Shown one piece after another: positions 14,889 through 16,002 of a stretch of 47,697 nucleotides of DNA (the stretch's first letter is position 1; every line of letters begins with the position of its first letter). The stretch is from an uncultured Mollicutes bacterium (GTDB lineage Bacteria > Bacillota_I > Bacilli_A > Acholeplasmatales > Anaeroplasmataceae). The position numbers and the translations under genes were made by a program. The DNA lies in the NCBI GenBank assembly GCA_947174785.1, contig CAMWKG010000012.1:1-47697 (forward strand), read 5' to 3'. The notes beneath the pieces were generated by a model. That model saw only the letters and a list, made by a program, of their open reading frames with translations. It searched no databases and was not told where the DNA came from.

Positions 14889-14922
14889 CAAAATAAAAAG
14901 CCTAATTCCTTAGACTTAATAA
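14889..14922 (-). repeat. 34-bp direct repeat, left copy, containing a terminator-like hairpin
   Basis: This sequence matches 15961-15994 at 33 of 34 positions, same orientation. On the minus strand it reads AAGTCTAA-GGAA-TTAGGCTT then TTTATTTT, an intrinsic terminator. The right copy is the terminator of tRNA-Gly; this copy lies in the leader of the DUF402 gene. It bounds a cassette of about 1 kb. Confidence 0.85.
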
Positions 14923-14952
14923 ATCAATTTATAATCTAGTCTAAACATAAAC

Positions 14953-15082: not shown

Positions 15083-15111
15083 TTGACTTTATTGATTAAA
15101 AAAATTAAAAT
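15083..15111 (+). promoter_or_regulatory. Promoter of the plus-strand small RNA
   Basis: TTGACT (15083-15088), exactly 17 bp, then TAAAAT (15106-15111). The predicted start is near 15118-15121. Confidence 0.65.
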
Positions 15112-15117
15112 TAAAGT

Positions 15118-15247
15118 ACAAGGGATGCATATCAGGGTCGCTGGTCAGTCTGGTTGTAAGTCTTCCGCCTTTTAAAAGGTAGCATGTCCTCTGCGAATAT
15201 CCTAGGACGATCAGCATTGAAGCCTATTTTTTAGGCTTTTTCTTTTT
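15118..15247 (+). ncRNA. Unidentified structured small RNA
   Basis: About 120 nt between a good promoter and a strong terminator, with no reading frame. The region is visibly richer in G+C than its surroundings. It can fold into a rod: GCUGGUC (15140-15146) pairs with GAUCAGC (15209-15215), GUC (15148-15150) continues with GAC (15206-15208), and a local hairpin GCCUU-UUAA-AAGGU sits at 15167-15180. The conserved SRP RNA loop, tmRNA, RNase P and 6S features were looked for and not seen. It converges on the minus-strand 15224-15685 gene and overlaps its last codons, so it could be antisense to that mRNA's 3' end. Confidence 0.55.
15220..15247. terminator. Bidirectional terminator shared by the small RNA and the 153-aa gene
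   Basis: Perfect 7-bp stem AAGCCTA/TAGGCTT (15220-15226 and 15232-15238) with T-loop and a T-rich tail TTTTTCTTTTT on the plus strand. The minus-strand gene's stop codon (15224) falls inside the stem. Confidence 0.75.
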
Positions 15248-15685
15248 CTCTAGCGTAAGATTCATCAAAATTTTCAGGTTAAACTTATTTATTGCCTTAT
15301 TGTTTAAGGATGATAAAATATCTCTTTTCTCTTCTTCAGATAGTATTCTATCATTTCTTTTTGCCTGCAAATCTTTAATTGTAATTGGTTCTTTCTTGCC
15401 TTTATCCTTTGTTACAACTGTTACACGCTTTAAATAAGAAGGTTTTATATCTTTAGTATTGGGATTTTTAATCTTCTTTTTCATCGATCCTGAAGTATGA
15501 TTAAGTTCTGCTAATAGAACCTTTTTATCATACTCTAACACCACTAAAGAAGGATGTGTATCAGCTTCTAACGTATGATGTAAAATCGAATTAGGTACAT
15601 CGTAAACATTCCATTCTCTTTTTCCTCTTACTAAAGGAATTTCTTTTGAAGTTTCAATTATGTGCTTCTTTTCTCTTTTCCTCAT
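15224..15685 (-). CDS. Small basic protein, possible MazF/ToxN-like toxin
   Basis: A 153-aa lysine-rich protein that I do not recognise with certainty; no signal peptide or membrane span. Residues about 43-64 (HPSLVVLEYDKKVLLAELNH) read as a beta hairpin and are followed by TSGSMKKK. That arrangement recalls PemK/MazF-fold nucleases and type III toxins such as ToxN, where a strand pair leads into a Thr/Ser-rich active loop with a lysine. The remainder is helical and basic (KKKKPKK at the end). ATG at 15685 follows AAGGGAGA. A pseudoknot RNA with its own terminator lies upstream and a small RNA converges downstream. The toxin assignment rests on pattern and context, not a proven match. Confidence 0.5.
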   Translation of the reverse strand: MRKREKKHIIETSKEIPLVRGKREWNVYDVPNSILHHTLEADTHPSLVVLEYDKKVLLAELNHTSGSMKKKIKNPNTKDIKPSYLKRVTVVTKDKGKKEPITIKDLQAKRNDRILSEEEKRDILSSLNNKAINKFNLKILMNLTLEKKKKPKK

Positions 15686-15733
15686 TTATAAATCTCCCTT
15701 TTATATAACTTCGTAATATTTTTTTGAAATAAA

Positions 15734-15761
15734 ATTATATTATTGTTGTTAATCCTAACAA
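15734..15761 (-). promoter_or_regulatory. Possible second promoter for the 153-aa gene
   Basis: TTGTTA (15756-15761), a 16-bp spacer and TATAAT (15734-15739) on the minus strand, starting in the T-run of the upstream RNA terminator. Confidence 0.4.
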
Positions 15762-15815
15762 AAAAGCGTGATCAAATTTGATAGTACATTTGTACTTATC
15801 ATTTTCAATCACGCT
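15760..15815 (-). terminator. Intrinsic terminator ending the pseudoknot RNA
   Basis: AGCGTGAT (15808-15815) pairs with ATCACGCT (15765-15772). An inner GATA-GTAC/GTAC-TATC helix sits inside. Six T residues follow on the minus strand, about 75 bp before the start of the 153-aa gene. Confidence 0.75.
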
Positions 15816-15904
15816 ATCCATTACGGAAAACCACTCTACTACATTCAATTGTCGAAAGCCATCTATAAGAAGTAGAGCTCTTACTTATAGACTTTTACTA
15901 ACTT
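15760..15904 (-). ncRNA. Pseudoknot-forming RNA upstream of the 153-aa gene
   Basis: About 145 nt between a sigma-A promoter and an intrinsic terminator. An 8-bp hairpin (UCUAUAAG 15891-15884 with CUUAUAGA 15869-15862) has a 14-nt loop. Seven loop bases, CUCUACU (15877-15871), are perfectly complementary to AGUAGAG downstream (15840-15834). This is a textbook H-type pseudoknot, with loops of 6, 1 and 21 nt. Antitoxin RNAs of type III systems are pseudoknots placed just here, but in repeats, and no tandem repeat is visible. A riboswitch or regulatory leader of the same gene is the main alternative. Confidence 0.55.
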
Positions 15905-15910
15905 ATATTT

Positions 15911-15940
15911 ACTATATTATACATTTAAGTAAGTTGTCAA
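15911..15940 (-). promoter_or_regulatory. Promoter of the pseudoknot RNA
   Basis: Consensus TTGACA (15935-15940), an 18-bp spacer and TATAGT (15911-15916) on the minus strand. Confidence 0.65.
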
Positions 15941-15960
15941 TACGCATTTTACTTTACTAG

Positions 15961-15994
15961 CAAAATAAAAAGCCTAATTTCTTAGACTTAATAA
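15961..15994 (-). repeat. 34-bp direct repeat, right copy; tRNA-Gly terminator
   Basis: 33 of 34 bases match 14889-14922. On the minus strand AAGTCTAA-GAAA-TTAGGCTT is followed by TTTATTTT, eight bases after the tRNA 3' end. Confidence 0.85.
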
Positions 15995-16002
15995 CCTTAA
16001 TT

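Follow-up and report, generated by a model that had tools for sequence, protein, structure and literature searches.

A genus-specific family of pseudoknotted RNA leaders ahead of unrelated genes in Anaeroplasma, candidate transcription attenuators

Anaeroplasma is a gut bacterium without a cell wall. The window analyzed here, meaning the whole stretch of 47,697 nucleotides from one contig (CAMWKG010000012.1), carries on its minus strand a compact locus in which a tRNA-Gly gene and a terminator repeat are followed by a promoter, an RNA of about 145 nt with a hairpin and U-run, and a 153-aa open reading frame (Table 1). A first-pass annotation had described the promoter, the intrinsic terminator, and the order promoter, RNA, terminator, gene, all of which are present as described. 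It had also reported seven base pairs between the hairpin loop and a segment 3' of it; this number holds if the next T-A pair is counted, and six pairs are found across the family introduced below. The absence of tandem repeats likewise stands, as the only repeat seen is a 14-nt sequence occurring twice in the promoter region.

Table 1. Features of the locus, in window coordinates
Feature	Positions	Strand	Details
tRNA-Gly	16077-16003	-	
Direct repeat, copy 1 (tRNA-Gly terminator)	15962-15995	-	Locus-specific
Sigma-70-type promoter	15911-15940	-	TTGACA 15940-15935, 18-nt spacer, TATAGT 15916-15911
Leader RNA, ~145 nt	15760-15905	-	One of 27 full-length family members
P0, closing helix around P1	15856-15904	-	AAGTT 15904-15900 with GGCTT 15860-15856
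P1 hairpin	15863-15890	-	CTATAAG 15890-15884 / CTTATAG 15869-15863
Pseudoknot helix	15834-15877	-	Loop CTCTAC 15877-15872 with GTAGAG 15839-15834
P2, short hairpin 5' of terminator	15817-15827	-	TCCG / TGGA
Intrinsic terminator, stem and U-run	15760-15815	-	Conserved 5' strand AGCGTGATTGAA
153-aa lysine-rich ORF behind leader	15224-15685	-	ATG; good RBS AAGGGAG
Direct repeat, copy 2, before DUF402 gene	14890-14923	-	

The 153-aa protein has no clear family, as had been stated: Pfam, NCBIfam, PADLOC, and the PDB returned no match, including to ToxN, CptN, TenpN, or MazF, and 199 related genomes contain a single relative (65% identity, in genome G009). A comparison of its predicted structure with toxin folds had been suggested, and the AlphaFold model proved unusable (pLDDT 38), as did that of a 162-aa protein encoded behind related RNAs (also pLDDT 38). 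Homology among the 153-aa, 162-aa, and 112-aa proteins of such loci was rejected because hhalign gave no significant score; the 153-aa and 112-aa proteins have in common a short HP...NPN...PSY pattern. On the 3' side of the 153-aa gene, the stretch at 15095-15232 (minus strand) is 74% identical in G009, including an identical GCATCCCTTGTACTTTAATTTTAATT, with no further copy elsewhere in the bacterial family. It was considered as a structured RNA and discarded, since it folds no better than shuffled sequences.

When positions 15756-15900 were used as a BLAST query against the genus and the family, the RNA was recovered many times. In all, 27 full-length copies were identified in 8 of 11 Anaeroplasma genomes: seven in the window genome, six in G009, six in G006 (plus fragments), three in G007, two in G002, and one each in G004, G005, and G010. 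Most of these genomes are fragmented metagenome assemblies, and some contexts are hidden by contig ends. Searching 160 genomes of the order with a covariance model based on 24 copies gave matches in 8, which all belong to a single genus. Moreover, a pattern of the pseudoknot core, run over 84,980 species genomes, returned Anaeroplasma, assemblies assigned to Anaeroplasmataceae or Mollicutes, and three further matches (Clostridium, Cyclobacteriaceae, and Verrucomicrobia) that were judged on inspection to be chance, the Clostridium match lying inside an ORF. No leader was present in the viral contigs searched, and before S-4TM genes in other genera the only match was a weak one (L208, 18.7 bits), which was set aside with P1 mostly missing. 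Rfam has no class that matches at its gathering score, and none that is plausible at E values up to 10. These RNAs make up a new family, multi-copy and specific to Anaeroplasma, with no convincing member outside the genus. A promoter resembling that of the window copy, in most cases with a 17-nt spacer, lies immediately 5' of P0 in nearly all copies. Also, stand-alone or decayed leader terminator hairpins lie downstream of other genes (L069, L070, L111, L112, and L113), of which L111 and L112 resemble leaders with an internal deletion.

The window RNA is more stable than all of 200 shuffled versions (z = -3.7). In the 24-copy alignment, 96.9% of cells in P1, the pseudoknot, P2, and the terminator are paired, and sliding the structure along the alignment lowers pairing to 29-53%. 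Two-sided changes occur at 13 pairs of the named structure, a count that none of 500 shuffles matched, although the copies are kin and this shuffle count overstates their independence. Covariation had been proposed as a check by the first-pass annotation, and P1 (two-sided changes in four of nine pairs), P2 (two pairs), and the terminator (six pairs over its two parts) do co-vary strongly. On its more specific question, whether the two complementary segments of the pseudoknot co-vary, the helix is paired in 99.3% of cells, but three of its six pairs are invariant and only one two-sided change is seen (A-U to G-C, in L072), together with one wobble (L071). Exchanges between A-U and G-C occur across copies in P0, the G005 copy has another terminator sequence with a compensated stem, and the unpaired motifs GACAA and UUUC are conserved.

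The nested minimum-energy fold of the window RNA differs from P1, and in this alternative the 5' strand of P1 pairs with AUGGAU. The pseudoknotted P1 structure is better supported, because the AUGGAU helix displays no two-sided change and is broken in the copies that precede winged-helix-turn-helix (wHTH) genes. A conserved antiterminator was not found: alifold predictions for truncated leaders gave no helix that competes with the terminator, and the sole alternative fold detected does not co-vary. Protein-assisted or processive mechanisms need no mutually exclusive antiterminator and terminator folds. Attenuation through a leader peptide was rejected, as the copies have no conserved upstream ORF.

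The genes behind the leader, here called cargo, are diverse, and several resemble phage-defense or toxin genes. At a distance of 19-75 nt past the terminator, 18 of the 27 copies have a full-size ORF that opens at the first start codon preceded by a Shine-Dalgarno sequence. These ORFs encode the 153-aa protein (the window copy and L002), a 162-aa family (L073, L053, L054, and L058, some in tandem), a 112-aa family (L075 and L055), RhuM-Fic (L076, L059, and L056, with L076 shortened), a 75-aa wHTH protein (L078, L060, L057, L065, L072, and L110), and a short RecQ helicase (L066). Searches of Pfam and PADLOC place RhuM-Fic in the candidate defense families PDC-S23/S05 and RecQ near DpdF/PsyrT, and the wHTH protein matches HTH_24; the 153-aa, 162-aa, and 112-aa proteins have no match above the cutoff in Pfam or PADLOC. 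Two other neighbors were not counted as cargo: S-4TM, which has its own promoter and is older than the leader, and YhcG, which starts roughly 145-155 nt past the terminator behind a mini-ORF. The remaining nine copies have no full-size ORF right after the terminator, six of them being followed by mini-ORFs of 6-21 codons and three by none. Cargo loss is accompanied by a broken pseudoknot in L068 and L109, and the pseudoknot is kept without cargo in L074 and L071.

In many copies, the gap between terminator and gene is about 20 nt and could not accommodate another promoter, so that expression of the gene must rely on read-through; in the tightest copies no promoter of its own is needed. The gap in the window copy is longer and holds a promoter-like match at 10 of 12 positions, and dependence of the 153-aa gene on read-through is less clear there.

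On this sequence evidence, we consider it reasonably likely that the RNA at 15760-15905 belongs to a family of pseudoknotted leaders that attenuate transcription in cis. The RNA is structured, conserved, and placed between promoter and start codon on the same strand as the gene, as expected of a cis-regulatory leader. Also, because the cargo belongs to unrelated families, a shared regulator fits better than a partner-specific RNA. Transcription would begin at P0, and the transcript would fold into P0 and P1, the loop pseudoknot, and P2. We infer that most transcripts would then stop at the terminator, keeping the downstream gene (here that for the 153-aa protein) low, and that a signal acting on the conserved core, whether a ligand, a protein, or a physiological state, would allow RNA polymerase to read into the gene. 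This proposal is close to the fallback of the first-pass annotation, a riboswitch-controlled gene. Counting against it are the lack of a conserved antiterminator, the promoter-like match in the window gap, and the nine copies without a full-size ORF. Pseudoknot riboswitches likewise combine a 5' leader, a compact pseudoknot core, and a terminator, whereas the Anaeroplasma leader has neither an Rfam class nor a metabolic gene theme.

Control of a defined pathway by an RNA leader is common. It is uncommon for a single structured RNA to stand before unrelated accessory and defense-type genes, with as many as seven copies in one genome. If the RNA is a switch, the leader could be used as a search key, the genes behind it in Anaeroplasma would be co-regulated, and the 153-aa, 162-aa, and 112-aa proteins would be flagged as part of one response. 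A more ambitious proposal, which we regard as possible but unlikely, is that one RNA sensor commands a dispersed, phage- or stress-responsive regulon of unrelated defense or toxin-like genes (RhuM-Fic, the RecQ-like protein, small proteins, and the wHTH regulator) that are exchanged behind it, with the 153-aa protein and its slot-mates being new defense effectors. The defense roles suggested for this cargo derive from family names.

Among rival explanations, a family of trans-acting small RNAs survives best, albeit as an improbable one. The roughly 145-nt RNA would then be the main product, regulating other transcripts, and the gene behind it would be expressed by leak only. Its multiple copies, each with promoter and terminator, and the cargo-free leaders that persist (L074 and L071) are consistent with this idea; the tight register of the gene behind the terminator in most copies and the loss of the pseudoknot from two leaders without cargo (L068 and L109) argue against it. 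Precedent comes from the Brt/Trp RNAs of Bartonella, which are genus-specific, multi-copy structured RNAs of about 200 nt (PMC5387305). Each Brt RNA lies directly 5' of a small, poorly transcribed HTH gene, with a proposed terminator/riboswitch region and RNA copies up to 100% identical, and trans action has been proposed in part for Brt1/Trp1, with Brt1 proposed to work as a cis riboswitch as well (PMC5387305). Together with RCd22, described below, these are the nearest published architectures. The likeness to the Anaeroplasma leader is one of architecture and includes genus specificity, multiple near-identical copies, and a position upstream of a gene. Nevertheless, the genes behind Brt RNAs all belong to a single HTH family, whereas the 75-aa wHTH protein is one of six cargo families here, and the Brt paper mentions no pseudoknot (PMC5387305), which the Anaeroplasma leader has.

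We also doubt, to a similar degree but slightly more, that gene cassettes require the RNA or its palindromic terminator in order to move or recombine, with regulation being secondary. Filled and empty sites are indeed apparent. For instance, a leader plus wHTH insert of roughly 440 bp lies between udk and the S-4TM promoter in six genomes. Within the family, the S-4TM gene next to udk is an old one; G004, G001, and G008 have neither leader nor wHTH gene there, and the gap in G004 and G001 carries S-4TM's own promoter. At the window locus, a 34-bp direct repeat flanks the insert and has only two copies in the genome, both at the locus; the tRNA-Gly gene directly adjoins the DUF402 gene in G007, and G006 has a single repeat copy. 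Also, one slot can hold different cargo, as after a ybaK-like gene, where the leader is followed by the 112-aa gene in G000 and G009 and by a mini-ORF and a 465-aa gene in G002. (The 465-aa protein, encoded at L117 892-2289 on G002:C31, has a C-terminal diadenylate cyclase [DAC] domain.) Finally, some leaders are closest to others of their own genome (the window copy and L073; L063 and L064). The copy on contig C20 that precedes a 162-aa gene matches the window RNA with 100% identity over 144 nt, whereas the window RNA and its G009 orthologue are 93% identical, suggesting that copies were recently duplicated or converted inside the genome. Against a mobility function, neither an integrase or transposase gene nor conserved ends of a cassette were seen, the udk site has no visible direct repeats, and the udk-locus copies look vertically inherited.

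The headline of the first-pass annotation was a type III-like toxin-antitoxin locus, in which the RNA would bind and neutralize a putative 153-aa toxin. We now consider this very unlikely. The order promoter, RNA, terminator, gene and the H-type pseudoknot do resemble ToxIN, CptIN, and TenpIN. Unlike those systems, the leader has no tandem repeat array, the 153-aa protein has no toxin homology by sequence, and the RNA is not linked to a single protein family: at least five further, unrelated gene families have near-identical RNAs in front of them, and the same 144-nt sequence serves the 153-aa gene and a 162-aa gene. Relatives of several cargo genes also do without the RNA. The YhcG and RhuM genes of leader-bearing genomes are mostly leader-free, and the 162-aa family occurs without a leader in G003 and in another genus. 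An RNA that precedes unrelated genes, several of which have RNA-free relatives, is unlikely to be a specific antitoxin for the 153-aa protein; it probably works as a reusable on/off switch, not as half of a toxin-antitoxin pair. The attenuator proposal has a parallel in RCd22-abiF of Clostridioides difficile, in which a SigA promoter, an RNA of about 130 nt, and a Rho-independent terminator precede a gene without its own promoter, with premature termination and co-transcription demonstrated by experiment (PMC12373285). RCd22 carries two AbiF-specific abiF motifs, whereas the Anaeroplasma RNA serves unrelated genes. The least likely alternative, a portable promoter with an insulating terminator that gives low constitutive expression and no switching, would explain the absence of a conserved antiterminator but hardly the covarying P1 and P2, the conserved pseudoknot, and the unpaired GACAA and UUUC, which exceed a terminator's needs.

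Other candidate RNA elements were seen near genes of these loci. In G003, the 162-aa genes (L178 and L182) have other shared sequences before them instead of the leader, namely CGGCAGTTTTCCTATAAAAAAATATG and similar stretches with hairpins, for example CCCGGAAGAACTCGATTCTTCCGGG. A different candidate structured leader of 180 nt with a terminator (z = -1.7) precedes a 112-aa gene in G002 (L189, G002:C20:6472-6651, minus strand); it has a single relative, on G006:C40, and matches nothing in Rfam. Finally, a SAM riboswitch (RF00162) lies just 3' of the S-4TM gene (L078 4297-4380 and L110 4123-4215), where it presumably serves the next gene.
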